From assembly GCA_900095095.1 (NCBI GenBank), contig FMBT01000371.1, positions 124,001 to 188,000 of the forward strand: 64,000 nt of DNA. The letters are read 5' to 3'. The DNA comes from Fragilariopsis cylindrus CCMP1102 (taxonomy: Eukaryota > Bacillariophyta > Bacillariophyceae > Bacillariales > Bacillariaceae). The stretch's first letter is position 1. Each line of letters begins with the position of its first letter. The notes beneath the pieces were generated by a model. It searched no databases and was not told the DNA's origin. It saw nothing but the letters and a program-made list of their open reading frames with translations. The position numbers and the translations under genes were made by a program. Shown here one piece after another: positions 15,280 to 60,839 of this stretch.

Positions 15280-16990
15280 CGAAAAACTAAATCATCGTAT
15301 TCCAATCCACTTTCTGGCATTCTAACCCATCCTAGCATGTATAAAGTCCCAATCAGATGGTATAATCTGAGCTTAATATGCATAAGGGGATACCTAGACC
15401 AAACTTTGGGGCGCTAGGTATGTGTTCTTCACACTGGAAGGTGGTAAAGGGGTGTGATGCAGCCTAAGAACATGGGAAAATGGCCCATTTTGGGGGTATG
15501 TGACCTAGTACACACTCAAAAAGATAAATTGTCCCAAAGTAAGCAGATGTGGTTGACCATATACACAAAAGGAAATATAAACTTGGCAAGCTATGGGCAG
15601 GACCATGCTGGTGTGACTTGTTTTGGGGCCTAAATGACCCTTTTGGGGCTTAGCACACCCTGACACCTTCCTAACCTCCCTAGAGCCCTAAGCAATAGTT
15701 GTACCTTGTACCCAGAGGTATAATGTTGAGCTCCATATAATCTTTTAAGGTTATTAGGTCTGTATTGATGGTGCATCACGCCTTGATTACACGCACACTT
15801 GGTACTTAGAGAAATGTGTGTTTTAATAGCGGTGGGTTTTGACCCGTGACACCCCAAACATATGTATGATTACCTAAACAAAGATATAAATCAGAACCTT
15901 ATGAATTAGATTGATGCCGAGCTATTTTATTTGGGACTTAGCATACCTGGTATGGGCGCAGTAGCATCTCAAATGTTTTTGCAATGTGTGCATTTTGCGC
16001 CATTTTATGTCTATTCTATTGTTCCCCGCCCCACACAACACGAATATGGCAAATATTCCACGTATTCTTGCTGTATTTTGACCATATACATATATGGAAG
16101 GTATCTGGATGTTCAAATCATGGTCCAGTTCCTTTTTTGATGTTGTGGCAGCCTATTTCTAAATGGTACTTTCAATATGACATGTTGGCCGAAATGGAAT
16201 ATTTGTGATCTGGAGACAAGAATGAGGTATGTATGAGGGATCATGACCCTTGGTCCATCTCCTATGGGTATGGATGAATGACTGGGTGGTATTTTGGTGC
16301 ACCATGCTGGTTCTAGAACCTAAGGAGAAGTTATTAATTTTACTATTCAAAGTTGTTTAATATTCTCCAATAACCAAACTCCACTGGAGAATTTGTCAGA
16401 TAAAATGATACCAATCATAATTGCTTTAGTCAAGAGATGATGAACCACCAGGGATGGTAGGAACCAAACACAATGTTCCAGTACACTATGTAGATGTTTG
16501 TGCACCCAACCCATCTGGTGTTGTCCTCTGTAACCATTTCAGATGAGATATTTTGTGGTTCATTATTTCTGATCCAAAATCATGTTTGTTTGTGTGCCTG
16601 CCATAGCAGCATAATGAATTTTGTCCTGCAACCATAGGAGATAAAGTAGTAGGAGGCAAACACAATGTTCTAGTACAATTTGTGGATGTTGTGCATGCAC
16701 CTGACCCATCTGGTGTTGTCTTATGGAACCCTTTTATATGAGATATTTTGTGGTTCATTATTTCTGATCCAAAATCATGTTGTTTGTGTGCCTGCCATAA
16801 CAGCATATAATGAGTTTTATTCCTCAACCACAGGAACAGAAAAGTTGTAGGTGGCAAACACAATGTTCTAGTACACTATGTGAATGTTTGTGCACCTGAC
16901 CCATCTGATGCTGTCCTCTGCAACCCTTTTAATTTGAGATATTTAGTGGTTCATTTCTGATCAAAAATCTTGTTCTATTTTTGTGCCTGC
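15280..16990 (-). mobile_element. Dispersed repeat element, copy A
   Basis: The reverse complement of 39569-41640. The match starts near 15280 (CGAAAAACTAAATCA against the complement of 41628) and runs through CCACTTTCTGGCATTCTAAC, CTAGCATGTATAAAGTCCC, a CACACTGGAAGGTGGTAAAG block, the GGGCCTAAATGACCCTTTTGG block (15626 against 41223), the GGTTCTAGAACCTAAGGAGAAG block, and into the minisatellite. No terminal inverted repeat, target-site duplication or intact open frame is visible, so it is most likely non-autonomous or a fragment. Boundaries are approximate. The strand is assigned relative to copy B. Confidence 0.8.
16447..16990 (-). repeat. Minisatellite of element copy A, ~195-bp units
   Basis: Two and a half units, anchored by GGAGGCAAACACAATGTTCT-type sequence near 16447, 16647 and 16843. 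Each unit carries CATCTGGTGTTGTC, GTGGTTCATTATTTCTGATC and CAAAATCATGTT. It is the same family as the array at 39569-40520. Confidence 0.85.
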
Positions 16991-23450: not shown

Positions 23451-25199
23451 TTACAAATCATCATCAGCCTCAAGATCCTTGACAGGTACGGCAGCAGATG
23501 CGACTGGTACACCAGCTTCAATATCAGCTTCAACATCATCATCCCCCATTGAAGCACGAAGGTCACGGATACTTCCAGATTGACGTTTGTTGACGGATTT
23601 GAGAGCATCAATTTCTAATTTCAAAGCATCTTCAAAGATCTTCTTTTCTGCATCAGTTTCAGCTAACTTGATGTGTCCACGAAGTTCACTGATGTTGTCC
23701 ATAACCTTTCCACGTTGGTTGGCGAATGATTCTTGGACTAAGTCCATGTATTCACGGGTGATAGTGTGACGTCCAACAGCATGTGCTGTCATGTTGGTTC
23801 CTACATCAAGATGTTGATTAATTTCTTCATCATCGGCGTAACCTTTGGCAGCACGTTCTTCTGGTGTTCCAACATAAACTTCGTCCATTTGGTATCCCAT
23901 TGCCTTACGTTGGATGACAGCGAATAACCAAGCAGCAGAACAGATACCGGTTGCTTCAAGGAATAATGCGGCTTGTAAAAAGATGTATACTACAGGGTTG
24001 GATAAGAAAGCAATAGGGAAGCTAGAAGCAACCAATTGCCATGCAATAGATCCAAGGATGGTTGTGGTAAGAGCACCCATAAAACCAAGATTGAACATAG
24101 CTTGGACCCAATCAGAAACACCAAAGATATTATCATCGACACCAATTTCAACATTGATCGTTGTTACACGTGCAATCACAAAGAAGCATAATGTAACAGT
24201 CATTTGACGACCACACATAAATCCTGGAAGATTCTTTCCACTGTTACGGAATAAGCAATCACATGTCTTGAGGGCCAAGGATGAATCACCACGTTCAGAC
24301 TTAGGAAGTTTGGAGACGGTAAAAAATGCAATTTGCATACCTTCAAGAAGACCAACACAACACATTAGGACAAGGAATGCAATTAATCCGACAGTGTTTG
24401 GTACACCAGCCCATATTGTAGTTTGTCCACGGTATAGAGCATCAATAGTAACGGCAAGAGCGAAACCAAGAATACCAACAGAGAATAAGATGCGTCCCCA
24501 GTAGAATACAAGGACGGCACCAGTCTTGGTAGGTTCGTTCGATTCGACAGGTTTACCTGCAGCCCAGTATGCCATCATACGGATGAGGTATGATGTGTGC
24601 ATGACACCGGTTACTTCAATACCGGCAGCAACCCAATAGGTAAAGGTCATGAAGTGGGTATTGATATAATCAAGCATACAATGTGAAGCATTAACTTGAG
24701 ACGTTAATTGACCAATGATAACATTTTGTAAGACCATGGCAATACCAGATCCAAGGAAGATATTGATAATCCATTGTGGTAGTCCCAAGACAGGTAGGGA
24801 TGCATCAATTGGTGCTCCGCATAGACCAATAGTAAAGTTAATAAAGATAACCATAAATTGACGTCCCATTAAGTAACGGTCAAGGTTATCACCCTTGTGT
24901 CCCCATCCGGTGATCTTGTATGTAATTGGATGAGATTCACGGTATAATTCACGATCAACTGGTGGTAGACCAACCATTGAACACTGTCCACCTTCAACCA
25001 TAGACATCCAGATAATGAGGACCCAAAGGATAATTCCAGCAGCAGCTGGATGGATATCACGTGCAAATTGTGTGTTACCAGTAGCAATTAATGCCAAAAC
25101 GACAACAACAGAAAAGGTTACAAGGACTGTACTGATAGCAATACGGATCTTATCAAGACCGGTATTGACGCCATGATAATGAGTTGCACCTTCCGACAT
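23451..25199 (-). CDS. SIT: Silicon transporter (SIT)
   Basis: Intronless 582-residue protein. It imports silicic acid, coupled to sodium in the diatom family, for frustule formation. About ten membrane helices form two inverted-symmetry bundles. The diagnostic motifs are all present: EGGQ (69-72) with GRQ (112-114) in the first half, and EGMQ (286-289) with GRQ (330-332) in the second half. The CMLD motif is at 174-177. The soluble C-terminus (about 450-582) is charged, contains a predicted coiled coil (about 480-555), and ends in an acidic DLEADDDL-type tail, as in other SITs. The ATG at 25197-25199 places the usual short N-terminus before helix 1. The reading frame is undamaged, and codon use looks more restricted than in neighbouring genes, as expected for high expression. 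Which SIT clade it belongs to cannot be told by eye. Confidence 0.97.
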   Translation of the reverse strand: MSEGATHYHGVNTGLDKIRIAISTVLVTFSVVVVLALIATGNTQFARDIHPAAAGIILWVLIIWMSMVEGGQCSMVGLPPVDRELYRESHPITYKITGWGHKGDNLDRYLMGRQFMVIFINFTIGLCGAPIDASLPVLGLPQWIINIFLGSGIAMVLQNVIIGQLTSQVNASHCMLDYINTHFMTFTYWVAAGIEVTGVMHTSYLIRMMAYWAAGKPVESNEPTKTGAVLVFYWGRILFSVGILGFALAVTIDALYRGQTTIWAGVPNTVGLIAFLVLMCCVGLLEGMQIAFFTVSKLPKSERGDSSLALKTCDCLFRNSGKNLPGFMCGRQMTVTLCFFVIARVTTINVEIGVDDNIFGVSDWVQAMFNLGFMGALTTTILGSIAWQLVASSFPIAFLSNPVVYIFLQAALFLEATGICSAAWLFAVIQRKAMGYQMDEVYVGTPEERAAKGYADDEEINQHLDVGTNMTAHAVGRHTITREYMDLVQESFANQRGKVMDNISELRGHIKLAETDAEKKIFEDALKLEIDALKSVNKRQSGSIRDLRASMGDDDVEADIEAGVPVASAAVPVKDLEADDDL

Positions 25200-40520: not shown

Positions 40521-41640
40521 CTTTGCCTCCTACCATCCCTGGTGGTTCATCATCACTTGACTGAAGTAATTCTTATTGGTATCATTTTTGTATCTCAAAT
40601 TCTCCAGTAGAGTTTGGTTATTGGAATATTAAACAACTTTGAATAATAAGATGAATAACTTCTCCTTAGGTTCTACAGCCAGCATGGTGCACCAAGATAC
40701 CAACATGTCATATTTCCATGCACAAAAGGATCATTCAGAAATAGGCTGCTACAACATCAAAAGGAGGAATTGGACCATGGTTTCAACACCCAGATGGTCA
40801 AAAATACACCAACAATACTTAGAACATATTGGTGGGGTGGTGGGGTGGGGAACAATAGAATAGACATAAAATAGCCCAAAATGCACACATTGCAAAAATA
40901 TTTGAGATGCTACTGCGCTCATACCAGGTATGCTCTGTCCCAAATATAATAGCTAAGCATCTACCATTGTTGTAGGTAACCATGCATACATTTGGGGTGT
41001 CACGGTACAAAACCCACCGCTATTAAAACACACAATTTCTCTAAGTGCCAAGTGCGCGTATAATCAAGGCCGTGATGAACCATCAATACAGATGACAACA
41101 GACCTACTAACCTTGAAAGATTATATGGAGCTCAACATTATACCTATGGGTACAACATACAACTATTGCTTAGGGCTGTAGGGAGGTTAGGAAGGTGTCA
41201 GGGTGTGCTAAGCCCCCAAAAGGGTCATTTAGGCCCTAAAACAGGTTTCCCCCTTTAGCGCCCACATCAGCATGGTCCTACCCATAGCTTGCCAACTTTA
41301 TCTTGCCTTTGGTGTATATTTTCAACCCCATGTGCTTACTTTGGGATAATTCATCCTCTTGAGTGTGTACTAGGTCATATACCCCCCCAACCCCCCCCCC
41401 CCCCAATGGGCCATTTTCCCATGTCCTAGGCTGCATCTATAACACCCTTTACCACCTTCCAGTGTGAAGAACACATACCTAGTGCCCCAAAGTTTGGTCC
41501 AGATATTCACCCTATGCATATTAAGCTCCGATTATACCATCTGATTGGGACTTTATACATGCTAGGGATGAGTTAGAATGCCAGAAAGTGGAGTGGTGCA
41601 GGTAGCAAGTAAGTACCACAGGACATGATTTAGCTTTTTC
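39569..41640 (+). mobile_element. Dispersed repeat element, copy B (inverted relative to copy A)
   Basis: Minisatellite array (39569-40520) followed by a unique part (40521-41640) that is the reverse complement of 15280-16440. The two copies face each other across about 22 kb. Matching blocks stay in order, with scattered substitutions and indels; copy B also has a poly-C run (about 41389-41404). No open frame is conserved between copies. Boundaries are approximate and no terminal repeats were found. Confidence 0.8.
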
Positions 41641-42076
41641 GCAAATACAACTCAAATATCAGAAAGACAGGAATCTTTTAGTTTTAAATCCCAAGCAAGA
41701 ACAGGAGCATCTACAAAACTGTCGTCTTGTGCGTACGGCGCACACGCGCGGTGCATCAATGTTTAGCGAGCATTTCCCATTTTTAAAATTTCAAATCTCT
41801 TAATTTTTTTTAATTATGTTTATGCCCTTAATAAGGAGCGAGTGCGGAGAAGCAAAGAGTAATGATACTTCAAATACCGTACTAATTTATTTAGTAGGAT
41901 CAAAGAAAAAAAAAAGAAAGAAAGCAAAAATAGACAACATTTTTACCGATAGTACAACAGAGAGGCAGAACAGACTTGAGTTTGATGATTGAGTTGAGAG
42001 GCAAGAGACTACGGTAGAGGGTGCAAAGAGACAAATAATCTGAATTACTGCACAGTACCACAACAATATAATAATA
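41641..42076. other. Spacer
   Basis: From the edge of the repeat element to the subtilase start. It has a homopurine run near 41903-41930. No gene. Confidence 0.4.
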
Positions 42077-44024
42077 ATGATGCTTATACGACGACTACTA
42101 CTACTACGTATACGTGTACTTGTGGTAGCACTCATGATATGCGGCGCTGCTGCTGATGCTGCTGTTGATGCCACGATCGTTACAATGCTTCGAGGAGGAG
42201 GAGGAGAACAGCAACAACAACAACAGCATCATACTCATGTTCATGTTCATCGTTTATTGGCAACAGCGTATAATGCTGCAGATAGTGATTCTAATTCTAC
42301 TGTAACTGCTGTTATGGATACAGCAAAAGAATCTCTAAATACATTCCAACAAAATATACAAACTATTATGTCCACCAATCCAAAAGAATGGACAACTATG
42401 GAAATCATTATTGTTATTGCAGTTATTCTGTCATCTTGGACATTAGTACTATTATTCTATATTTGTTGTACACGATGTTGTAGAGCAAAAAAATTACAAA
42501 AGATGAAAACGAATACGAATTATCACAAAAAGAAACAACAACATGATATGGTACGTCCATATGTAAAAAGAATGATCGGTACACCAGGATCAATTGTTCC
42601 ACCATTAATATCCAATTTTTCATCACCATTAGATTTAGCCTATGGTAATAATTTAAATTTAGATGCCACTAATATCAATAAATTACCATTAGGTGTACGT
42701 TTACATGGTGCTGTACAATTACGTCGTAACAAATTAGAAGGACAAAATATACGTATCGCTGTTATTGATTCAGGTATTGATTCCTCCCATCCAGGTACGT
42801 TTTCGTTATATTATATGTTTAAAAAAAGCTTATAAAAAGCTTCAAATAAATAGTACAGTATTTGAAAAAGACGGAGAGAGTGCTGATGAGCGTTATTAGT
42901 CTCGGTGTGTTTGCCTAACGCACCCTTTTCTTTTTTCTAACAATAATTTCCCCAATTCATCCACCTTTTCTTGACGTTATCGATCTCCTTCCTACACCAT
43001 ACTATCTAATTTTTTTTATTGACACTGCCTACTGTATGATCCATCCATCCGCCGCGCCTTGCCTTGCCCCGCCTTCTCTTTTTTTCCTCGAACAAAAATC
43101 GTTCGTCCCCGAATCTGAAACCGCATTGATTTGAATTGAATGAATCATCCACGATTCGATGATTGATTCACGTTTGCAATTAATTTATTTCCTTGACTTT
43201 TTATTTTTTTATATTTTAACAAAAACCAAAACAACAACACAACAGGATTTCATGGTGCAATTAATTCCGAAAAATATTGGTTTCGATATGGTACACCATT
43301 AAGTCAAGATGATCATGGTACACATGTTGCTGGTACAATACATTTTATGGCACCACAAGCGGAACTATATGATTATCGTGTCTTTGGTGAAGAGGGTGAT
43401 ATCGATGGTACTATGGCTGTGGCCAAAAGTATTCGACATGCGGTGGATATCACAAAATGTCATATTATTAATATGTCATTATCGGTTGGTTATCCAGTAC
43501 GTACCGAGATACAAAAAGCTATCCAATATGCCTATAAGAAAGGTGTGCATATGGTATGTGCAGCTGGTAATGATGGTGATGGCAATCCAACCACAGATGA
43601 AATATATTGTTATCCAGCAATATATAAAGAAACTATATCCATTGCAGCGGTACAGAAAGAAGATGGTTTTCTGTTAGATGCTACAAATTTTAGTGAATCC
43701 AATTCGAGTATAAATTATAGTGGTATTGGTTCGAATGTTGTTTCCTTAAAACCAGGTGGTGGGATACAAACTATGTCTGGTACGTCAATGGCTGCACCAC
43801 ATATAACAGGATTAATTGCATGTCTGCTCAGTAATGACAATAATAATTCAACCACAAAATACAATATTACAGATAAAAAATTACGTGCCTTGCTTGATAC
43901 AACATATGTTATTGATATTGGTGAAGAAGGATATGATAAACAAACTGGTAAAGGATTTTTATCTTATTTAGCTGCGAATGATAAAGATGATTTTATTGAT
44001 TTATTATCAATGGTGGCAAATTAG
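42077..44024 (+). CDS. Membrane-anchored subtilisin-like serine protease (S8)
   Basis: Exons 42077-42794 and 43246-44024; the 451-nt intron is the longest I can place in this window and splits the conserved DSGIDSSHP|G. Protein of 498 residues. The triad is complete: Asp231 (VIDSGID), His263 (DDHGTHVAGT) and Ser420 (GTSMAAPH), with oxyanion Asn348 (AAGNDG). A signal-peptide-like N-terminus (1-28) and a second hydrophobic segment (109-131) followed by CCTRCCRAKK suggest anchoring, with possible palmitoylation of the Cys cluster (inference). If both segments are real, topology decides whether the catalytic domain faces lumen or cytosol. There is no recognisable I9 propeptide; the 70-residue stretch before the catalytic domain may take that role. 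The frame is clean. The substrate is unknown. Confidence 0.93.
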
Positions 44025-44796
44025 AAATATATATATATAAAGATGGAACGAAAAAGAAATTGGAAGAGGAATGATATTTATAAGACTTGACTTGACTTAT
44101 ACCGTCTCGATTGATTGATTGATATCATCATTCATACGGTACGATGAAAGAGTGGACGGGAGAGTCGAGAAGAGTAGAGTAGGGTAGAGCAGTTGATGCA
44201 GATATTCCAATAGCGAGGAAGGAGGAAACGAAAAAAAAGAGGGAAGGTAGGATGAAACTTTTCAAGAGTGTTGGAGGACATGATTAGGACAGGACAGAAG
44301 CATCCATGTAACGACATAATGGGCACCGCCGCGGTTTGCGATGTACTTTATTTTTTCATGAGTGGACAATGCAAATGCAGTACAGTTATTAGATTATTTG
44401 CTTGTTTTTTTGTATGAAGTACTATTTAATTTATTTATGATATGATTTATGAATTTTGTATTACAATAATAGAAAGGCAGTTTCTGACCAGAATTTGTTG
44501 CAGTTGTATTAGTAGCAAGTGTCAGCATGCCGTTTTTAATTATTATTGTAAATATGATGATGTGTGCGATCCCCCCAGAAAAAATTACTATTTGTGATGC
44601 CGTTGTTGCTGTGCTGTGCTGTGTGCTGTGTTATGTTATGCTGAAGTTGGTATGTTTTATTTTACTTTTTAGATTTCACGAACGAAAATACTGATGGTTT
44701 ATAATATTCTTGAGAAAGACAGACGCATTTTACCTATATAACATAACATACTTGTACAAAAGTGCCTACCTACCGTTCATTATTGAATTGTTTGCT
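44025..44796. other. Convergent spacer
   Basis: 3' flanks of the subtilase and of the giant repeat gene. No gene or notable repeat beyond short ATT and GTGCT runs. Confidence 0.4.
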
Positions 44797-47700
44797 TTAT
44801 TTTTTCGATGATGATGCTGCAACTCGTTGTACCATTTGTAATCCATCCCCAACGAATTTAACGAACATCCGTCCACCACTTCGGAATAAAGATGACGAGG
44901 ATGTTGATGATGATGGCATACTGCGTGTGCTTGGTGGTGGTGACGATAATGAAGAAGAATTAAGTTTGGTTGTTTTCGTTACCTTCTTTACGGCGTCATC
45001 GTTCCATCCTGTAGCAGAAGTAGCGGCAAAGAATGGTATCGGAGAAGAGTCAGCAGTGGCGGTGGTAGCGGATGATGCAGCAGTGGTAGCAATAGGCGTT
45101 GCTATGTTGTTATCATGGTTTGTTGAAGAAGAAGAATCCATTTTAGTTGTTGCAGCTTCCTTCTTCACGGTATCGCCATTGACCTCAGTAGTAGAGGCGA
45201 AAAATGGTTTCGGAGAGTGTCGTGGTTTCGAGGAGACGTCAGCAGCAGCAGTATTGTATGTGGCAGATTTACTATTTTTATTCGCCTTTTCTTCTGCCGC
45301 CACAGCAGCTGACGAAGCGATGTATTCCTTCGTTTGTTTCTCGGCTACACGGTAAACCATTTGTAATCCATCGAAAGCAAACTTAGCGACATTCTTTCCA
45401 CCCTCCATCAATTGGGTTGCTATAATTTCTTCGGATGACTTTATACCGGCGTCTTTAATTTTCTCATCCTTCTTATCTCTATCGATGTCGAATCCAAAAA
45501 TATCCTTTAATTCTCGTTGCTTACTATTTCGTCTAGCTTCTGCCGGCGTTACAGCAGTTGCCTTTTCCATCTTTTGTGCATCATCGCTAACCATTTGTAA
45601 TCCATCACTAACAAATTGTGCAAATTTTCGAATATCAGAGGCAGTTTTCTTGGCCGAATTCATATCCATCTTCGACGATTGTTGAATACCCTTCAAACCT
45701 CCCACTACTGATTGCTTACGTAGCTCGGTCCCAATAGAACTAAGCATTTTCATACTTCCGTTATTATTAGTACTAGAATTGGGAGGTGATACTCGTGGTA
45801 GGTCGTCGGATGATACAACAGGACCATCACCTTTCGTATTCAAACGAGGAGAAGAATTAGTACTCGCCGTAGCTGCTGTTGGTTGTTTAACTCGTTTCGT
45901 AATAACCATATTCATACCTGTGTCATCCGTGACGAAATGCGCAGGTGAATTTTTCCTAGTTCCAAACATTTCTGCCATTTTCTTATATTCCGCCATTTTC
46001 TTAGCATACTGTAACCGTTCTTTCTGGAAATCCGATTGATCTGTTGTTACAAATTGCGAACCGTCACTCTCAAACACAGCCGGCCTCTTTGCACGTTGGA
46101 ACAAACCATATCCAGGAGACGACGAAGGATCGTTCGATATCTCTGTGGCAACTACCTTTGGTTGTGTTTCTACCTGAACACTAGCACCACCATTGACTTG
46201 TGCTTCTTCGGCTCGTTTCCTCTCTTGTACGATTCGCGCTATTTCCAATCGCTTCTTCTCAGTAGCGAGAATAGATAGTAATCTATTTTCTTGGGAAATT
46301 TCTTTCTCGATCTCTCTAGCTATACGTGATATTCCATCGGTCGCGGAATCAGCCTTTTCTCTTTCGGGTGCTGTAGTTCGAGATGGGCGACGTGCTTCAA
46401 ATGACATACCATCACTCTCACCTTGGAACACCTTCGAGGTAGGTGATTCTTTTTTCTCTGTCATCTTTACGATCCTTTGAGTTGGTGTAGTTCTTTTCGG
46501 CGCTTGCGATTCAAATGACATACCGCTGTTAGCACTTTCAAAAGTTGATGGTGCGGCTTCCTTCTTTTCTGCCATTCTTACAATTCTTTGAGTTGGTGCA
46601 GTCCGTTTCGGCGCTTGCGCTTCAAATGACATACCGCTGTTAGCACTTTCAAATGTTGATGGTGCGGCTTCTTTCTTTTCTGCCATCTTCACGATTCTTT
46701 GAGTTGGTGGCTCACTTGCTCTGGAAACTCGAGTCTCGAATGACATACCGCTGTTAGCACTTTCAAACGTTGATGGTGCGGCTGCTATATTTTCTGCCAT
46801 TCTTACAATTCTTTGAGTTGGCGCAGTCCGTTTCGGCGCTTGCGATTCAAATGACATACCGCTGTTAGCACTTTCAAAAGTTGATGGTGCGGCTTCTTTC
46901 TTTTCTGCCATCTTCACGATTCGTTGAGTTGATGGCTCACTTGCTTTGGAAACTCGAGCCTCGAATGACATACCGCTGTTAGCACTTTCAAATGTTGATG
47001 GTGCGGCTGCTTTATTTTCTTCCATCTTCACGATTCGTTGAGTTGGTGCGGTCCGTTTCGGCGCTTGTGTTTCGAACGATATTCCTGCATTTGCTGTCTC
47101 AAAGATTTTGGAAGGTGGTGGTGCATCTTTTTCTTCCATCTTTACGATTCGTTGAGTTGGTGCGGTCCGTTTCGGCGCTTGTGTTTCGAACGATATTCCT
47201 GCATTTGCTGTCTCAAAGATTTTGGAAGGTGGTGGTTCATCTTTTTCTTCCATCTTTACGATTCGTTGAGTTGGCGCAGTCCGTTTCGGCGCTTGTGCTT
47301 CGAACGATATTTCTGCATTTGCTGTTTCAAAGATTTTGGAAGGAGGTGGTTCATCTTTTTCTTCCATCTTTACGATTCGCTGAGTCGGTGGTTCACTCGA
47401 TTTGGGTACACGAGCCTCAAATGACATACCATTATTAGCACTATTAAAAGTAGAGGGTGCATGCTCTTTCTTTTGTTCCATCCTTACGATTCGCTGAGTC
47501 GGCGGATCGCTTGATTTGGGAACACGAGCCTCAAATGACATACCACTATTAGCGCTATCAAACGTTGATGGTGCATCCATTTTCTTTTCTGCCATCTTCA
47601 CGATTCTTTGAGTCGGTGGTTCACTTGATTTCGGTGCTTTTGCCTCGAAAGAGATTCCAGCATTTTCCGTCTCAAACATCTTTGATGGAGGTGGCTCATT

Positions 47701-50700
47701 TTTTTCTTTCATTTTCACAACCCGTTCAGTCAGAACATTCGGTTTGGGTACACGTGGCTCAAATGACATACCGCTGTTAGCGCTTTCAAACGAAGATTGT
47801 GCAGATTCTTGCTCTACTGCCATCCTTACGATTCTTTGAGTTGACGGATCGCTTGATTTGGGTGGTCGAGCTTCAAACGATATTCCAGCGTTATCTGTCT
47901 CAAAAATCTTCGATGTAGGCGGTTCATTCTTTTCTTCCATTTTCACGATCCTTTGAGTTGGTTCACGTACTTTAGGTGCTCGTGCCTCGAAAGAAATACC
48001 GCTGTTGGTACTCTGGAAGACTTTAGATGGAGGTGGTTCCTTCTTTTCTGCCATATTTACAATCCGTTGCGACGATGTAGCACTTCGGCCTGCTACGCTG
48101 ACTTCAACGGACACACCATTGTCTTTACTTTGAAGCGACTTCTTCGATACTGTATTAGTTCCTTCCTGCACTTTTACAGGTACCGTTGTTTCTGTCGATG
48201 AACGATCATCTTCGATTGTAGCGCTTTCCACACTTTCTGGCATCTCCACCTCCTTTCTTTGCTCTTGTTTTTCCAGTGCTTCTTCGGCCAAACGAACTTC
48301 TTCCGCAAGCTTTTTATTCTCCTCCTCAGCTACCCGTACTTCCTCCGCAATCCGAGCTTCTTCTACCAAACGAGCTTCTTCCGCAAGTCTAACATTTTCT
48401 TTAGCACGTTGTTGTTCTTCATCCTCGGCAATTCGACGAGATTCATCGGCTAAACGTAGTTGTTCTTCCGCAACTCGAGCGTCCTCGACCAAATGGGCTT
48501 CTTCTGCAAGTCTAGCCTCTTCTTTTAGTCGTGTTTCTTCTGATAGACGCATTTTTTCTGTCACCCGTGCTTTTTCGGCCGAACGAGCTTCTTCTGCCGC
48601 GATCTGTTGTGCATTTGGCCCTGCAGGTGCCACTTGACTACGTACTGCTCGGAACATCGAACCACCAAATGTAGCAACCTTCGAGATAGCTGCACCGGTA
48701 CCTTCTGCTGCCTTTCTAAAAGGGACGAGTCTCTTCTTGGATGGTTGAGAAGATTCTGCCTTGAACATCATCCCACCATCATCACTTTGGAAAATGTTTC
48801 GTCTCTTTGGTACTGGAGCGTCGAGTTCGGTATCTGGTGAAATTCTAGCACGACGAGCGGCGTTAGTAGGCGGTCGCACACGTGCCTCGAACATCATACC
48901 GTTATCATCATTTCGGAATGTCGATGGTGCAGTTTCTTTCTTTTCGACCATTTGTACTATTCTTTGTTTTGGTGGTGCAGTAGATGCAACTAATTTTGGT
49001 TCAAATGACATACCACTATTAGCACTTTCAAATTTTGATGGTGCTGCATCTTTCTTTTCGGCCATCTTGACAACCTTTTGCTTTGGTGGTGATGCAGAAG
49101 ATACAACCGATTTTGGTTCAAATGACATACCACTATTAGCACTTTCAAATGTTGATGGTGCTATCTTTTTTCTTTTCCGCCATCTTGACAACCTTTTGCT
49201 TCGGTGGTGATGCAGAAGATGCAACTGATTTTGGTTCAAATGACATACCATTATTAGCACTTTCAAATGTGGATGGTGCCGAGTCTTTGTTTTCTTCCAT
49301 CTTAACAATACGTTGTTTTAGCGGTGGCACAGTCGATTGCTTAGGTTCAAATGACATACCGCTATTAGCACTTTCAAATGTTGATGGTGCTGTCTCTTTG
49401 TTTTCGGCCATCTCTATAATCTTTTGCTTCTGTGGTGATGCAGAAGATACTGCTGATTTTGTTGGTTCAAACGACATACCACTATTAGCACTTTCAAAAG
49501 ATGACGGTGCTGTCTCTTTGATTTCTTCCATTTTAACAATACGTTGTATTGGCGGTGGCACAGTCAATTGCTTAGGTTCAAACGACATACCGTTACTAGC
49601 ACTTTCAAATGTTGATGGTGTTGTCTCTTTGTTTTCCGCCATCTTTACAACCTTTTGTTTCGGTGGTGGCACAGTCGATTGCTTAGGTTCAAATGACATA
49701 CCACTATTAGCACTTTCAAATGTTGATGGTGCTGTCTCTTTGTTTTCGGCCATCTTGGCAACCTTTTGCTTTGGTGGTGATGCAGAAGATGCAACCGATA
49801 TCTTTGATTCAAACGACATACCACTATTAGCACTTTCAAATGTTGATGGTGTTGTCTCTTTGTTTTCTTCCATCTGAACAATTTCTTTGTTTTGGTGGTG
49901 GCATAGTCGATTTTTTTGGTTCAAACGACATACCACTATTAGCACTTTCAAATGTTGATGGTGCTATCTCTTTCTTTTCCGCATCTCTACAATCTTTTGC
50001 TTCGGTGGTGATGCTGCTGCTGCTGCTGATTTTTTTGGTTCAAATGACATGCCGCTATTAGCGCTTTCAAATGTTGATGGTGCCGTATCTTTCTTTTCTG
50101 CCATCTTGACAACCTTTTGCTTTGGTGGCGATGCAGATGCTGCTGCTGCTGATCTTGGTTCAAATGACATACCACTATTTGCACTCTCAAATGATGATGG
50201 CGCTGTCACTATATTTTCTTCCATTTGAACAATTCGTTGTTTTGTTGATGGAGGTGCTGATTTAGCTTCATATGACATGCCACTATTTGCACTTTCAAAT
50301 GATGATGGTGCTTTCTCTTCGTTTTCTTCCATTTGAACGATTCGTTGTTTTGTTGATGAAGGTGCTGGTTTAGCATCAAACGACATACCGCTATTCGCAC
50401 TCTCAAATGATGATGGAGCCGTCCGTTTATTTTCTGCCATCTTCACCATCCGTCGTGTCGTCGATGTCGTCGCTTGTTTCGCTTCAAATGACATATCACT
50501 ATTAGCACTTGCTTTAAACGTAGATGGTGCTGTCACTTTATTTTCTGCCATCTTCACAATCCGTTGTTTTATTGGTGGTGATTGTTTTGCTTCAAATGAC
50601 ATACCATTATTACCACTCTCAAATGATGATGGTGCTTTTTCTTTAATTTCATCCATTCGAGCCATTATACCACTCCGTGTATATGGTACTAATCGTTTCT

Positions 50701-51262
50701 TTGTTGGACGACCACTAATATCAATTCTTGAATCATAATTATTGTTATTTGAACCACCATAAATGACATACCACCATCATTACTTCTAAATATGGATGAA
50801 AATGGTATATCAGCAACAAGTTCCACTTCCACAACAGGGGGTGACTTTGCTGCTGCAATAGCTGCATCAAGATCATCTAATGGATCATCAACAGTATCCT
50901 TCTTCTTCTCCTTTTCTTCCTCCTTACTTGTATTACTCCCATCCTCGTCGTCCTTAGTATCATCGGAAGATGATGATGATGATGTTAGGGGTAGTAATCC
51001 AATATCGATTGGTGAATTATTATTCGATGATGATGACGATGATGAATAAATGATGGAACTGATGTCCTTTTCTTCTTCCTCCAGAAGAAATCCCGTAATT
51101 CCTTCTATTATTATTAAGAATATTATTGTTGGTGCTGCTGGAATGGAATGCATGGACATTATTATTGTCAACAACAAATAATAATCCTGCTGATAACAAC
51201 AATAGGACAGTAACGGATGACGCGAAAACCACAACGTTCATCGTCGTTCTTAAAGATGCCAT
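44797..51262 (-). CDS. Giant repetitive protein, probably plastid-targeted
   Basis: Read from ATG 51260-51262 to a stop at 44797, about 2150 residues, no intron seen. The N-terminus is a signal peptide ending VHA|FHSS, the A|F junction of diatom plastid presequences. Next come an acidic Ser-rich region and a first FRSNDGGMSF, then about 35 copies of a 25-35-residue repeat whose consensus is Q-R-I-V-K-M-x-E-K-K, P-S-x-F-E-S, then ANSGMSFEA. A coiled coil of AEEARLAEE-type heptads (around nt 48210-48620) interrupts the array. The C-terminal 350 residues carry five related FVSDGLQMV-type motifs. The frame changes near 51110, 50757, 49977, 49876 and 49165. Three fit one lost base; the first and last need one extra or two lost bases. 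The intact 44797-49308 part alone is 1503 residues. No known family is recognised. A structural or scaffolding role is inference. Confidence 0.8.
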
Positions 51263-52195
51263 AATTATAATCGATTTTGATTGATGTGATTGATGTCGAT
51301 GTCGATCTTGTGTCTGTCTTATTATCGTCCCGAAGAAGTACTGCTTGCGTTGTTGTCTGTTGTTCGTTTGCTCTTGTGGTGGCAATTGTAGGGCCAGTCT
51401 ATTCTTTCTTGCTTGGATTGAGTGGCAAACTAATGCATCAACTTAAAGTACCTCTCTTTCGTGTATAGTAGCTACTAGTATTGCACTTGTGTCCTCCCTC
51501 CATGGATCTTTCTACTGTACCGCCGTATGTATCATTGATTGTTTGTGTACCGTATGCGCATTTGTTTGTGATTTGTGCATTATTTTTTGAATTGTTGAAC
51601 CAGAGTTCCGAAAAATCTGGCAGACGTCATCATTTCAAATCGCGCGTTTTTGATTGGTCTGATCGTCCTTCCGTCGGCTCACACCAACTGTAGTGATGGC
51701 TTAGAAAACAAAAGAAACTATTTAGTATGTAAAAGTGACTAAATCGAATGAATCAATCATGATCGAACAATTAATCTCCTCTTCAATCACAAACTTCTCT
51801 TTCTAAACTGCCGAAGCGGGATCGACGACAAATCAAATCAAATAATAATACCGTAATGATGATGTAAAAGCACAAATGCACATCACAATCAGAACATACC
51901 ACAACCTGCGCCCCCTAGACGAACAACCGTCTCCGTCCTTGTTAATGCGACAGCAACAACAACAACAACAACCACTAGCACAACACTTACTGTATCACAC
52001 GGACGTGAATTTGTAAGTGATCAAAACAAGTAGAAAAGAAAAAAGGGAAAGAAAGGTAGATTGATTGTTGTCGTACTACTGTTGTACTTCATTCAATTCA
52101 TTCGGCTTATCTAGTATTTCTGTTCTCTCGAACACAAAAGAAGAAGAAAAGGAACAACAGCAACAGCAATAGCAACAGCAACAGCAACAGCAACA
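51263..52195. other. Divergent intergenic region
   Basis: Between the starts of the giant repeat gene and the Na+/H+ antiporter gene. It has a CAACAG run just before the antiporter ATG and an ACAACAACAACAACAACA run at about 51955. Presumed promoters for both genes; no element is recognised. Confidence 0.5.
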
Positions 52196-55100
52196 ATGGC
52201 TACCAATAGTAGTATAGTCCATACGTTTCGTCGGAATTTGCGATCCTCCACCACTCTTAGTAGTACGAAAAGAAGAAGAAAAAAAATACGACAACGAACT
52301 ACTACGGGGAAACAGAAACATCTTTTCCCATCATCCTTCATTTTTTTGGGATTGGTGTTTGTGATTTGTTTTTGTTGTGGTGGTTGGACGGAACAAGTAC
52401 AAGTGTCAGCACAGTTTGCGGAACTATTTGATGCGATAGGTGTGGTAAATGATGCCATGACGAAAAACAATACAACTGCAAATGCAAATGCAAACATCAC
52501 CAACATCACCAACATTACAGATACAAACACAACAATAATAGACACAAACACAAATACAACAATAACACAACCACCAATAGTAGAATCGGGTGGTGATATC
52601 GTCCAACGACCCTCCAATGCAGTGGCAGCGGATTCTATTTTATATCCTTGGTTTATTCAATTATTAGGTTGTTGTTCCTTATTTGTCCTAACCAGATTTA
52701 ATTGTCCCATACCGTATGCGGCTATTATGTTTATTTGGGGTGCGATATTCGGCATCATTGCTTCTACGAATGAAGAAGATGCAATCTATCAGGATCCAAA
52801 TCGGAATTATATCCAAGATTCGATCACCGCATGGATTAATATTGATAGTGCAACATTATTATTAGTTTTTTTACCTGGTTTGATTTTAAGGATGCGGTAG
52901 AAATTCCAATTAATTTATTTCAAGTGGCAATCGGTAAGAAGTGTTTGTGTATTGTATGCTTTAAGGTGGGATTGGTATTTTGATGATGTGCTTTTTTCTA
53001 AAAAAAATCTAACAATCAATTTTTTGCCATTTTTTTTGCGAACAAATAAATGTAAAATAAACAGTACAAATTTGGATCCTATCCTTTCCAATGGTCTTGG
53101 TCGGAACGGCTATTACAGGTGTGGTAGCAATGTATTGTCTCCCCTACGAGTCCGATGATCCGGATGTGTATGGTATTTGGAGTTGGTTGACACTGGGAGC
53201 AATTCTTGCCTCCACGGATCCGATTGCCGTGTCCAGTGTATTAAAAACAGCCGGTGCCTCACCTCGTTTAGTGATGCATATTTCTGGCGAGTCATTATTA
53301 AATGATGGGAGTTCGTATGTATTTTTACCATTGCTGCTAATAAATGGTACCAGGATCTAGGTCTTACACCCAATGTTACCTATGATACTGCATGGGAATG
53401 GACGGGATATTTCTTCCAAATGTCCTTAGGTGGTAGCTTAATGGGAATGGTGTTTGGATTTGGTTTGTTAGGAGTATTATGGGAACTCGACCGAAGGATG
53501 GAAAAAGATTTCGATATCGTGCAGGTCGTCATGGGTCTAACTGCTGCGTACTTATGTTATTACGTGTGTGATCAAATGTTAACGATGTCGGGTGTGGTGG
53601 CCACGGTCGCATTAGGTGTGGTCGTGAATCGATTTGGAAGAGGTATGATTAACGACGAAGGACTGATGTCATCCTATTTAGCATTGGTACGTATATATCT
53701 ATTCGAGTGAAAACAAAAATGAATGGAAATGCTGCCATCACAAAATACCGAAAACAATTCCTCAACCAATCACACATATTCTCTCTCTCTTTCTCTCATT
53801 ATACCTATTGTTGAATTGTATAAACTCCCGACCATTCTTTCCAGGCTGACTTCTTGCTCAATACACTTTTATTCGCCCTTGGTGGAACGATCTGGGGTGC
53901 GGCATCCTTTTCGGAATATAGAAGTGCGAGAATTACATCCACGGATATTGGATGGTTGTTGGTATTTTACATCCTATGCTTTGTTATTCGTTTCATTCAG
54001 GTAGGACTTTTCTATCCAATTATCTCTCGAATTGGACTGAAATCGAATTGGAAAGAAGGCGTATTTTTAGCCTATGGAGGACTGCACGGAAGTGTGGGGG
54101 TTGCATTAGGTCTATCACTTCTCCAGTATGTGTTCCAAAATTCTTCAGAAGAAGATACTGACAAACGAAAAGCGGCGACTATAATACAATTTTTGGGAGG
54201 TGGAGCTACACTATTGACTCTAACAATAAATGGTACAAGTGCTGGTTTCATTTTAAAACAGCTCGGTCTTGTTAAACCTAAAGTTTCTGGCGATCATACC
54301 AAACATTTGTTTGAAGGGACCGCGAAAGATTTTGTTTACAATCAAATTGTGAACCTACTTCGAGAACCACGTTTTCGTCATATCAGCTTTCCTGTATTGA
54401 AGGAACTCGTGCCGTTTGTAACAAAGCAACCACGAAGAAGAACAAACTACTCTTTCGATGCCAATGCCCACACGGGGGAGGCGGTCGAAAACTTTAATCA
54501 GTGCATCATTGGGGGAGGTCAACAATATATGAATCTATTGCAGGCGACTCGGCGTGCATCAGATCACATATCAGAAACGGCCGAAATTGAATACAAACAT
54601 CAATTATTAATTGAGATGAGACAGATCTTTTTAGAACTTTTACGGGAAGCATATAAGTTTTCAATTGAAGTTGGCGAATTAGATGCAAAAAATCATGGTG
54701 GATTTTTATCTGACGTATTGATGCAGAGTGTGGACTTGGCCTTAAACGATGTTAGATACGACGATTTGCCTATTGATGATTGGAAACACACCGAAATATT
54801 TTTCCGATGGGATAGATTGACGAGAGAATATTCGGGATCCATCAATATGACGGCTAATCAAGGACAGCATTCGGGATCCATCAGAATGAATTCTAATCGA
54901 GGACCTATTAATTCCGGCATCGGTTCAAGCAATTTACATAAACGAAAATCATCAAGAAAGGTATCCTTAGAATCGGCCGAAAAGAAAAATGATATTCACG
55001 CAAATAGAGTATCAAACATATCTTTTACGTCGTCGTTACTATCAATTATTTCTGCTGAGAATAGTAACACAGAACGCAAGGCCGAGACGACTAAACTAAG

Positions 55101-57830: not shown

Positions 57831-58673
57831 AGGAAATCGGAAACTCTAGACTCGACTGATTCGACTGACTCGACTCACTCATTCATTTAAATAATAATGT
57901 TTCTTTACTCGTTTTTGATTGGACCAAAAAAAACACGCGATTTGCTGAGAAATTCGGCGAAATGAGAAGGCCGAGGCTTCTCAATTTTTTATGTACAGTA
58001 CCGGTATGCTCACAATTCACATTGTCTTTTGGATCTTCCGAATTTTCTTTTGGATTCTCCGAATGAGAAAACAAAAATATGACTGACGCATACACATATC
58101 GTACAGTACGTCATTTACTTCTTGTGTTATATATTCATTATTATTACTTGACTCACATACTGTTACACATACACTACATAGCACGCTAACGGTGATATAC
58201 TGGTCCATCCCTCTAGATTCCCTCACTCTTTGGATCTTTGGAACGACTCTCTTGTACTACATGTGTATGACGGGCGGCGGCGAAGCTGTTGAGCTGGTCG
58301 ATGACATTACATCACATCCACGAGTTAAATATAGTATATGCATCTACGAATGTTTATGACGGGTGAGGCGGCGGCGAATAATGTTGAGCTGGTCGATGAC
58401 ATGTCATGATATTAAATGACATTGCAACACATCCACGAGTTATAAGTACATACGCAACCATGCATACCGTATTCTGAAGATTATTTAGCACGATCGATCC
58501 GACGAAATCGATCGTTGCATTGTTTGAATCTTTTACGTAGTTTGTTGTCGCACCTCATCACAACGTGAGCAATCTATTAGTCTCATAAAATAAGAAATTT
58601 GTTGAAACAAAACAAACGGAAGTCAAGTTCACAACAAGCATTCCTTATTCATTCTATTCATAATCCATTAACG
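57831..58673. other. Spacer with GAGTC cluster and ~89-bp duplication
   Basis: Contains a CTCGACTGATTCGACTGACT cluster (57848-57880), the duplication at 58264-58455, and the presumed promoter of the fasciclin gene. No gene. An in-frame upstream extension of the fasciclin frame exists but lacks signal-peptide character. Confidence 0.5.
58264..58455 (+). repeat. ~89-bp direct duplication
   Basis: TATGACGGG(C/T)GGCGG-type sequence followed by TTGAGCTGGTCGATGACAT and then ACATCCACGAGTTA occurs at 58266 and 58355. The second copy has an insertion repeating the GACATG/AATGACATT part. Confidence 0.9.
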
Positions 58674-60839
58674 ATGAAATTGTCATTCTCACCTACTCTC
58701 ACCGCTTCTCTTGCTGCTGTTGCCTTAATTGGTACAACAGTCCAAGTCCAAGTCCAAGCGCTAGAAGATATTCCTACAACAGCAATTGAGAATGGATCCT
58801 TTACAACATTAGTTGCAGCATTAGGTGCAGCGGACCTTGTGGATGCATTAAGTGAACCGAATGGTCCATTCACTGTATTCGCTCCAACGGATGAAGCATT
58901 TGATGCATTACCTAATGGACTAGTAGAATGTTTACTAGAACCTGAAAACAAAGATTCATTAGCAGCCATTTTGACGTATCACGTTGTTAGTGGTCAAGTT
59001 TTATCGTCTGATTTAATGGATGGTATGACAGCAACTACCCTTCAAGGTGAAGATGTTACTGTTGATCTATCCGATGGTGTTAAAATTAATGATTCGATTG
59101 TTGTCGCAGCGGATGTATCTGCTACGAATGGTGTCATACATGTTATTAGTTCAGTATTAGTTCCACCATCTCTTGATGTCGAGGCATTCCTCGAAACATG
59201 TGGTGATTCTAGTGACTCTAGTGACTCTAGTGATGATATTGATCTTGACATTCCTGGTACTGCAATCGCAGCTGGTACATTTAATACGTTAGTTGCAGCA
59301 TTAGGTGCAGCAGATCTTGTGGATGCATTAAGTGATCCAAATGGACCATTTACTGTATTTGCACCGACCGATGATGCATTTGCTGCATTACCTGAAGGAT
59401 TAGTTACTTGTTTACTAGAACCAGATAACAAAGGAGCGTTATCAGCTATTTTAACATATCACGTCGTTCCTTTTCAAGTTTTATCAAATGCATTAATTGA
59501 TGGAAGGATACTTACTACACTTCAAGGTGAAGAGGTTACTGTTGATTTATCGGATGGTGTTAAGATTAATGAGTCGACTGTTGAAACAGCTGATGTATTA
59601 GCCAAGAATGGTGTTATTCATATCATTGATGCTGTTTTAGTACCACCATCCATTGATGTCAATGCCTTCCTGAAGTCATGCAGTGGTGAAGATGATGAAC
59701 CAGAACCCGCTGCACCAGCTGAATCTACACTTGTAGATATTCCTAGTACCGCCATTGAAGCTGGTATGTTTAATACATTAGTTGCTGCATTAGGTGCCGC
59801 CGACCTCGTTGGTGCATTACAAGGAGACGGACCATTTACCGTATTTGCACCAACTGATGATGCATTTGCTGCATTACCTGAAGAACTTGTTACTTGTTTA
59901 TTAGAACCAGATAACAAAGGAGTATTACAGTCCATCTTAACATACCACGTCGTAAGTGGTCAAGTTTTATCCACTGATTTAGAGGATGGTATGGAAGCTG
60001 CTACTCTTCAAGGAGAAGAAGTCGTTGTTGATCTATCAGATGGTGTTAAGATTAACGAATCTAACGTTATTATAGCCGATGTCCTTGCTACTAATGGTGT
60101 CATTCATGTTATTGATGCTGTTTTAGTACCACCATCTATCAGCGTCGCTGAATTCCTTGAAACATGTGGTGACGATAGTGACTCTAGTGATTCTAGTGAC
60201 GATGAACCTGATGTGTGTACATACTTAGGTGTATCACGATCAGCTGGACAATACTTGACAGGACCATCCCATACATGTTTATGCCAATCTGGTGGACATT
60301 GGATTGAATGTAAAAGCAATGGAAATTTATTACAAACAACACAAGAATTTATTTTAACGTCTGATTCATTTACAACATTAGAAGCAGCAGTTGTACAGGC
60401 AGATTTAGTTGGGTTTTTAGATGGTGACGCGGACCAACCGTACACTTTATTTGCACCAACTGATGCTGCATTTGCTGACGTACCTGCTGCCGTATTAGCG
60501 TTCTTACTAGACAATGATAATAAGGCTGTACTACTACAAGTATTATCATACCATGTACTATCTGGTATTGTTGATGCTGATGATGTTCCAGCGGGAACAA
60601 CAGATAACATTCTAACATTACTTGAACCTGAAGTTATTGTTGCAAAAAAGACATGCTTTACAGCAACAAAAGTTGAAACTGGTACGCCACCATGTGACGA
60701 GTTCAGTCTATTATTGAATGGTAATAGTAATGTCATTGTTACTGATATTGAAACAGCCAATGGTATTGTTCATGTTATTGACACGGTATTAATCCCACCA
60801 TCCTTAGTTGAAGCTGTTACTAAAATTGTTGAAGGTTAA
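58674..60839 (+). CDS. Secreted protein with four fasciclin (FAS1) domains
   Basis: 721 residues, no intron. The ATG at 58674 is chosen because a signal peptide (MKLSFSPTLTASLAAVALIG) starts there; an upstream in-frame ATG at 58599 would bury it. FAS1 domains lie at about 30-170, 191-335, 355-495 and 555-715. Each has the H1 motif (TVFAPTDEAF, TVFAPTDDAF twice, and TLFAPTDAAF), a YHV motif (LTYHVV or LSYHVL), and the H2 end (NGVIHVI..VLVPPS). Domains 1-3 are near-identical recent duplications. Linkers are SSDSSDD-type acidic Ser runs. Before domain 4 lies a small Cys-rich insert (CTYLGVSRSAG ... CLCQSGGHWIEC), and domain 4 has its own Cys pair. An extracellular adhesion or matrix protein; there is no C-terminal GPI or membrane segment. 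Confidence 0.97.
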   Translation: MKLSFSPTLTASLAAVALIGTTVQVQVQALEDIPTTAIENGSFTTLVAALGAADLVDALSEPNGPFTVFAPTDEAFDALPNGLVECLLEPENKDSLAAILTYHVVSGQVLSSDLMDGMTATTLQGEDVTVDLSDGVKINDSIVVAADVSATNGVIHVISSVLVPPSLDVEAFLETCGDSSDSSDSSDDIDLDIPGTAIAAGTFNTLVAALGAADLVDALSDPNGPFTVFAPTDDAFAALPEGLVTCLLEPDNKGALSAILTYHVVPFQVLSNALIDGRILTTLQGEEVTVDLSDGVKINESTVETADVLAKNGVIHIIDAVLVPPSIDVNAFLKSCSGEDDEPEPAAPAESTLVDIPSTAIEAGMFNTLVAALGAADLVGALQGDGPFTVFAPTDDAFAALPEELVTCLLEPDNKGVLQSILTYHVVSGQVLSTDLEDGMEAATLQGEEVVVDLSDGVKINESNVIIADVLATNGVIHVIDAVLVPPSISVAEFLETCGDDSDSSDSSDDEPDVCTYLGVSRSAGQYLTGPSHTCLCQSGGHWIECKSNGNLLQTTQEFILTSDSFTTLEAAVVQADLVGFLDGDADQPYTLFAPTDAAFADVPAAVLAFLLDNDNKAVLLQVLSYHVLSGIVDADDVPAGTTDNILTLLEPEVIVAKKTCFTATKVETGTPPCDEFSLLLNGNSNVIVTDIETANGIVHVIDTVLIPPSLVEAVTKIVEG

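Follow-up and report, generated by a model that had tools for sequence, protein, structure and literature searches.

The window analysed here, a 64,000-nucleotide stretch of contig C50 in the 67.9-Mb, 818-contig genome assembly of Fragilariopsis cylindrus CCMP1102, carries on its minus strand a gene whose predicted product displays 34 motifs of the FESANSGMSFEA type (all positions given are those of the window). An ORF at 52196–52900 (plus) lies head-to-head with this gene; it has no Pfam match at E 0.01, and its end reads like what we take to be a Na+/H+ exchanger. Immediately beyond the repeat gene's 3' end lies a subtilase-family ORF (PF00082, E 2e-27; 43347–44024, plus), and because this ORF begins inside the domain the subtilase gene probably extends upstream or is broken. 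Further away are a silicon transporter (PF03842, E 9.9e-228) at 23454–25199 (minus), a gene that is diagnostic of a diatom genome, and a 746-residue ORF with four fasciclin domains (PF02469, E 2e-135) at 58599–60839 (plus). The features of the repeat gene are as follows.

51624–51629, no strand assigned: ACGTCA, a possible CO2/cAMP element, 362 bases before the ATG, and present at the corresponding place in the second copy of the gene
44797–51262, minus: coding region of about 2,150 codons, ATG at 51262 and stop at 44797–44799, with about five one-base shifts
51149–51262, minus: predicted signal peptide of 38 residues, MASLRTTMNVVVFASSVTVLLLLSAGLLFVVDNNNVHA (translation; cleavage by the -3/-1 rule)
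51040–51148, minus: transit-peptide-like stretch starting with F (FHSSSTNNNILNNNRRNYGISSGGRRKG...) (translation and presequence features)
50764–51060, minus: stretch rich in Ser and Asp/Glu that leads up to array I and ends in its first motif (lower boundary approximate)
48763–50793, minus: array I, 18 motifs, the first IFRSNDGGMSF and the last IFQSDDGGMMF (motif mapping)
48244–48618, minus: charged predicted helix of 125 residues, hexad period, rod-like (AlphaFold model and periodicity)
46396–48138, minus: array II, 16 motifs, subtypes FESANSGMSF and IFETANAGISF (motif mapping)
46189–46365, minus: predicted helix of 59 residues after array II (block pLDDT 68–86 over most of it)
46048–46074, minus: FESDGSQFV, a loose tail motif (translation and profile)
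45907–45936, minus: FVTDDTGMNM, the tail motif nearest the array motif (translation and profile)
45589–45615, minus: FVSDGLQMV, in a low-confidence predicted helix (pattern scan and model)
45355–45381, minus: FAFDGLQMV, in a low-confidence predicted helix (pattern scan and model)
44830–44856, minus: FVGDGLQMV, in a low-confidence predicted helix (pattern scan and model)

An earlier note, made from the letters of the sequence, had described a protein of about 2150 residues with about 35 repeats; motif mapping counts 34, and the start, the stop and the length of about 2,150 codons stand, while the single open frame does not. The longest intact ORF comprises 1,503 codons (49308–44797), and the frame changes near 51040, 50765, 49985, 49890 and 49160. 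Four of these five breaks fall inside motif steps of 167, 119, 112 and 118 bases, none of them a multiple of three.

The array motif can be written F-x-S-x-N-x-G-M/I-S-F, with QRIVKM about 15 residues earlier in most units. Nearly all motif steps measure 108–120 bases (36–40 residues), the exceptions being the first (167), that into the last array I motif (126) and that across the central helix (657). The layout runs from 18 motifs through the 125-residue charged helix to 16 further motifs and the tail; the AEEARLAEE-rich helix between two arrays and the repeated C-terminal motifs that had been noted earlier are indeed present. The first unit of array II (SLQSKDNGVSVE, 48097–48210, minus) shows the same degeneracy in both copies of the gene and may for this reason be a kept relic or serve a separate function. 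Read piecewise across the breaks, the mature part has a pI of 9.18, a net charge of +29, no Cys and, in 2,124 residues, a single Trp (in GWNDD).

The second copy lies on contig C811 (12.4 kb), which is collinear with positions 41306–54474 of the window at 81–87% DNA identity and is therefore probably the other haplotype of the locus. The corresponding divergence of 13–19% is high for two haplotypes of one strain and may point to a hybrid or a mixed sample. One end of this contig matches both 15302–15572 (reverse) and about 41306–41590, at about 87%, so that a dispersed repeat seems to occupy these two places. The C811 copy has 29 motifs (16 + 13) against 34 (18 + 16) in the window copy; its mapping gave 30 rows, from which EEKEKKKDINVD was dropped as a non-motif. 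Here too the frame is interrupted, with motif steps of 110, 113, 118 and 113 bases that are not divisible by three and further breaks at the N-terminus. Seven breaks other than the N-terminal ones were viewed at base level and proved to be small indels, most of them within or next to base runs, and the sequence contexts of the breaks differ between the two copies, from which we regard the breaks as likely assembly errors. What speaks against this is their clustering toward the 5' half of the gene, which applies to every break of the window copy and to most of those in the C811 copy.

Comparison of the two copies shows that the motifs are under purifying selection, with a dN/dS of 0.144 (132 codons), compared with 0.354 over the remaining 608 codons of that middle stretch; the tail gives 0.503 (532 codons, including S/T-rich low-complexity parts). 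Among the units within each array pN/pS is 0.236 for window array I (17 of 18 units), 0.220 for window array II (16 of 16) and 0.231 for C811 array II (13 of 13), the weakest constraint being that of C811 array I at 0.432 (15 of 16 units); one misaligned array I unit per copy, one residue longer, is excluded from these values, which with it become 0.366 (window) and 0.614 (C811). The protein sequence, and the motif above all, is conserved while copy number varies, and the locus is supported as a real coding gene under selection.

The central helix had been taken for a coiled coil. Its spectral power is 117 at a hydrophobic period of 6.0 and 6.3 at the heptad period of 3.5, which makes a coiled coil doubtful; its hydrophobic moment is close to zero, E-R/K pairs are numerous, and the sequence looks like a lone charged rod instead. 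Single α-helix rods of the ER/K type are charged, Glu/Arg-rich helices without a hydrophobic stripe, and the central helix resembles them in these respects, with the difference that here it forms only the 125-residue middle part of a longer protein. At a rise of 0.15 nm per residue the rod would be roughly 19 nm long.

Two AlphaFold models, computed from two-row alignments of low depth, cover 15 of the 34 motifs. In the 718-residue model, which runs from the last three array I motifs through the central helix to the eleventh motif of array II, 588 residues lie under pLDDT 50, and 105 residues of the helix (model residues 164–288) reach 90 or above. The 568-residue model of the last motif and the tail has a mean pLDDT of 45.3, with 408 residues under 50. 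None of the 15 modelled array motifs is ordered in these predictions and no helix is placed at them; the modelled parts of the arrays are thus predicted to be disordered, a prediction more in keeping with a condensate linker than with a rigid structural protein. The new structural component that the earlier note had in mind is a possibility.

Five FVSDGLQMV-type motifs had been proposed for the tail, of which three share DGLQMV as described, FVTDDTGMNM and FESDGSQFV being looser. By eye the array and tail motifs have F-x-S/T-D...M in common, with FVTDDTGMNM as an intermediate, and the earlier note saw in the tail motifs an ancestral form of the repeat. An array-motif profile built without two of the 34 units (SLQSKDNGVSV and the one-residue-longer FKASANSDMSF) lends this idea no statistical support when compared with shuffles. 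FVTDDTGMNM is the best tail window, yet its score of 8.1 is equalled by 162 of 2000 shuffles; FVSDGLQMVS and FAFDGLQMVY score -0.65 and FVGDGLQMV is outside the 12 best tail windows. The third-best tail score is equalled by 8 of 2000 shuffles, its window, SSTNNNGSMK, being none of the proposed motifs, and the fifth-best by 369 of 2000. It seems preferable to regard the three DGLQMV motifs as a separate, second class. The tail also holds, at about 44960–45220 (minus), a two-copy repeat of roughly 55–60 residues beginning SPxPFFA.

The N-terminus reads MASLRTTMNV...DNNNVHA/FHSSSTNNN in translation (the slash marks the predicted cleavage), and NVDA/FHSSS in the C811 copy, so that A/FHSSS is common to both. 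The marks of a diatom plastid presequence are F at +1, hydroxylated residues, a low content of acidic residues and a net positive charge (PMC4329603). The predicted presequence has F at +1 and no acidic residue among the next 27, the stretch being basic and hydroxyl-rich, and the suggestion of a signal peptide ending VHA/F of the diatom plastid type fits these features. Bipartite plastid presequence features are thus supported at the level of sequence, and we infer a plastid location for the protein.

Beyond the two copies, the motifs appear to be without close company in this genome. The strict motif pattern gives 40 genome matches, of which 22 fall on motifs of the window copy (34 in all) and 18 on motifs of the C811 copy (29 in all), and its reversed control gives none; confinement to the two copies with an empty control indicates that the array is not a product of chance. 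FxxDGLQMV matches six times, three per copy, again with a control of 0. A looser motif pattern added one match, in a 131-residue ORF on C420 that resembles a clathrin light chain, and this was taken as chance since the control pattern also gave one. Genome protein searches with tail and array queries, whose match counts are lower bounds, found no significant paralogue outside this gene and its C811 copy, the weak matches lying on C549, C80, C262 and C679 (E 0.5 to 4.3).

The pieces scanned against Pfam and NCBIfam gave nothing above a curated cut-off. HTH_Tnp_IS1 (E 0.00013, 22 bits, cut-off 24.9) was rejected as a repeat or composition artefact, as were the weak family matches PH_FAN, Fer4_13, BAF1_ABF1 and SR-25 and, from a scan of the pieces after the N-terminal one, HscA (E 6.6e-5, 21.7 bits, cut-off 743), Geo26A (E 0.00039, 20.3 bits, cut-off 40) and c_cpa1. 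The PDB returned nothing credible (two matches listed, best E 0.41). The absence of a family match that had been noted earlier therefore holds for Pfam, NCBIfam, the PDB and the genome's own proteins. In IMG/VR the tail query gave 5 pattern matches and two array units gave 17, and a single scan of contigs from bacteria and archaea, with a portion of array II as query, gave 192, of which none was confirmed in any case. No paper describing the array motif is among the literature matches listed, though such a protein may be described in 2024 work on the diatom pyrenoid or in further papers. The Rubisco large subunit has no match in the assembly, as is expected if plastid contigs were left out. 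The genome does encode PsbO, whose best PDB matches are photosystem II chains, which we take to be those of Thalassiosira and Chaetoceros; together with the silicon transporter this identifies the assembly as the nuclear genome of a photosynthetic diatom.

TGACGT, ACGTCA and TGACGC are the CO2/cAMP elements of carbonic anhydrase genes in Phaeodactylum tricornutum, where they sit 42–86 bases before the transcription start (PMC7378808). The upstream DNA of the two gene copies is identical at 799 of 921 positions. The ACGTCA upstream of the repeat gene is a weak lead to a CO2/cAMP element, since it occurs there just once per gene copy and the hexamer and its complement are found 25 times in the window.

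We tentatively favour, as the likeliest reading, that the gene encodes a multivalent, disordered plastid scaffold and is a candidate Rubisco (pyrenoid) linker. The nuclear-encoded protein would be imported into the diatom plastid, where two long disordered arrays joined by a stiff charged helix would display 34 short stickers, the tail adding three helical DGLQMV motifs after them. Every sticker would dock onto a site of some enzyme complex that is abundant in the plastid, and with its flexible spacers a single chain could link many such complexes and condense them. The likeliest client would be Rubisco, the protein then being a pyrenoid linker that works like EPYC1 or PYCO1 without kinship to either; we infer the multivalent binding, the client and the condensation from the layout as a whole. 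FLIPPer seeks largely disordered proteins with repeating structured elements 20–120 residues apart (PMC11570498). The spacing here is 36–40 residues and disorder is predicted at the 15 of 34 motifs modelled; on the other side, no helix is predicted at these array motifs, unlike the structured elements FLIPPer looks for, and the helices of the DGLQMV tail motifs are of low confidence. Also counted against a linker are the want of a Trp sticker as in PYCO1, the modest net charge and the clustering of breaks toward the 5' half of both copies. In favour of a linker are also the constraint on the motifs, the presequence features, the basic, Cys-free composition and the retention of the motif while its number varies between the two copies. 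There is no sequence homology among EPYC1, PYCO1 and CsLinker (PMC13159521), so that a lack of relatives is expected here. Exact KWSPxGG, the PYCO1 sticker, is absent from the genome, which argues, if weakly, that the role is not contested by an obvious homologue of PYCO1.

The client may possibly be another one, although we hold this with some doubt: a plastid scaffold could tether thylakoids, the nucleoid or the pyrenoid shell, or crosslink another enzyme, with the long helix as spacer and the tail helices as anchors. Presequence, arrays and conservation would suit such a scaffold too, and the long charged helix and the helical tail motifs are features not reported for PYCO1 in the source cited below. 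The searches point to no specific partner, however, and to our knowledge the well-studied plastid proteins with such a multivalent layout are Rubisco linkers. It is unlikely that the protein stops short of the plastid after entry into the ER and is secreted or placed in the cell wall in association with silica. A signal peptide is present, and diatom wall proteins are often repetitive and rich in Ser and Lys, but A/FHSSS is kept in both copies, and a basic stretch free of acidic residues behind an F at +1 belongs to the plastid type (PMC4329603). Least probable is a decaying pseudogene or an assembly product, in which the breaks would be real or the array mis-assembled. Both copies are broken, mostly toward the 5' half, as such a reading would have it; the differing contexts of the breaks and the nature of the seven inspected, small indels largely within or next to base runs, speak against it, as does the protein-level constraint on both arrays and the tail, weakest as it is in C811 array I.

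If the Rubisco linker reading is followed further, the protein may, though with some doubt, represent a second kind of diatom Rubisco linker, unrelated to PYCO1, with 34 stickers in two arrays, a helical rod and helical tail stickers. It would then be more multivalent than the linkers in the cited papers and would differ in sticker number between gene copies. Up to 20% of the CO2 fixed globally is attributed to diatoms (PMC10288592), and PYCO1 is the sole diatom Rubisco linker in the papers cited here. An explicit sticker sequence makes Rubisco condensation in other diatoms testable with short peptides, and if the client is not Rubisco a plastid scaffold with 34 stickers would be a new component in its own right.

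PYCO1 (Phatr3_J49957), the Rubisco linker of P. tricornutum, is a tandem-repeat protein with stickers for the small subunit and a second class, for the large subunit, near its C-terminus; BLAST is reported to have given no homologue in other species (PMC10288592). The protein described here resembles it in coming from a diatom and in being plastid-addressed, disordered and basic, with tandem repeats of conserved short motifs and a second motif class near the C-terminus; the pI is 10.03 for PYCO1 and 9.18 for the mature part here. As described in that source, PYCO1 comprises six repeats, each about 80 residues long, with the motifs KWSPR/Q and GTGYNP and helices of the AAEWGSMNQ type, whereas here 34 motifs about 38 residues apart and a long charged helix make up a protein of about 2,150 residues. 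The single Trp, in GWNDD, means that there is no KWSP, and membership of the PYCO1 family was rejected for want of the KWSPR/Q sticker. EPYC1, which has five evenly spaced stickers (PMC10288592), and CsLinker share with our candidate a disordered chain with evenly spaced stickers at distances usable for bridging Rubisco (PMC11570498, PMC10288592); compared by description only, they differ in having few, helical stickers and in belonging to the green lineage with its Form IB Rubisco. CsoS2, the α-carboxysome linker, likewise combines several motif classes in one disordered chain with a distinct C-terminal part, but it is bacterial, has about 10–13 repeats and makes known contacts with the shell (PMC13159521).
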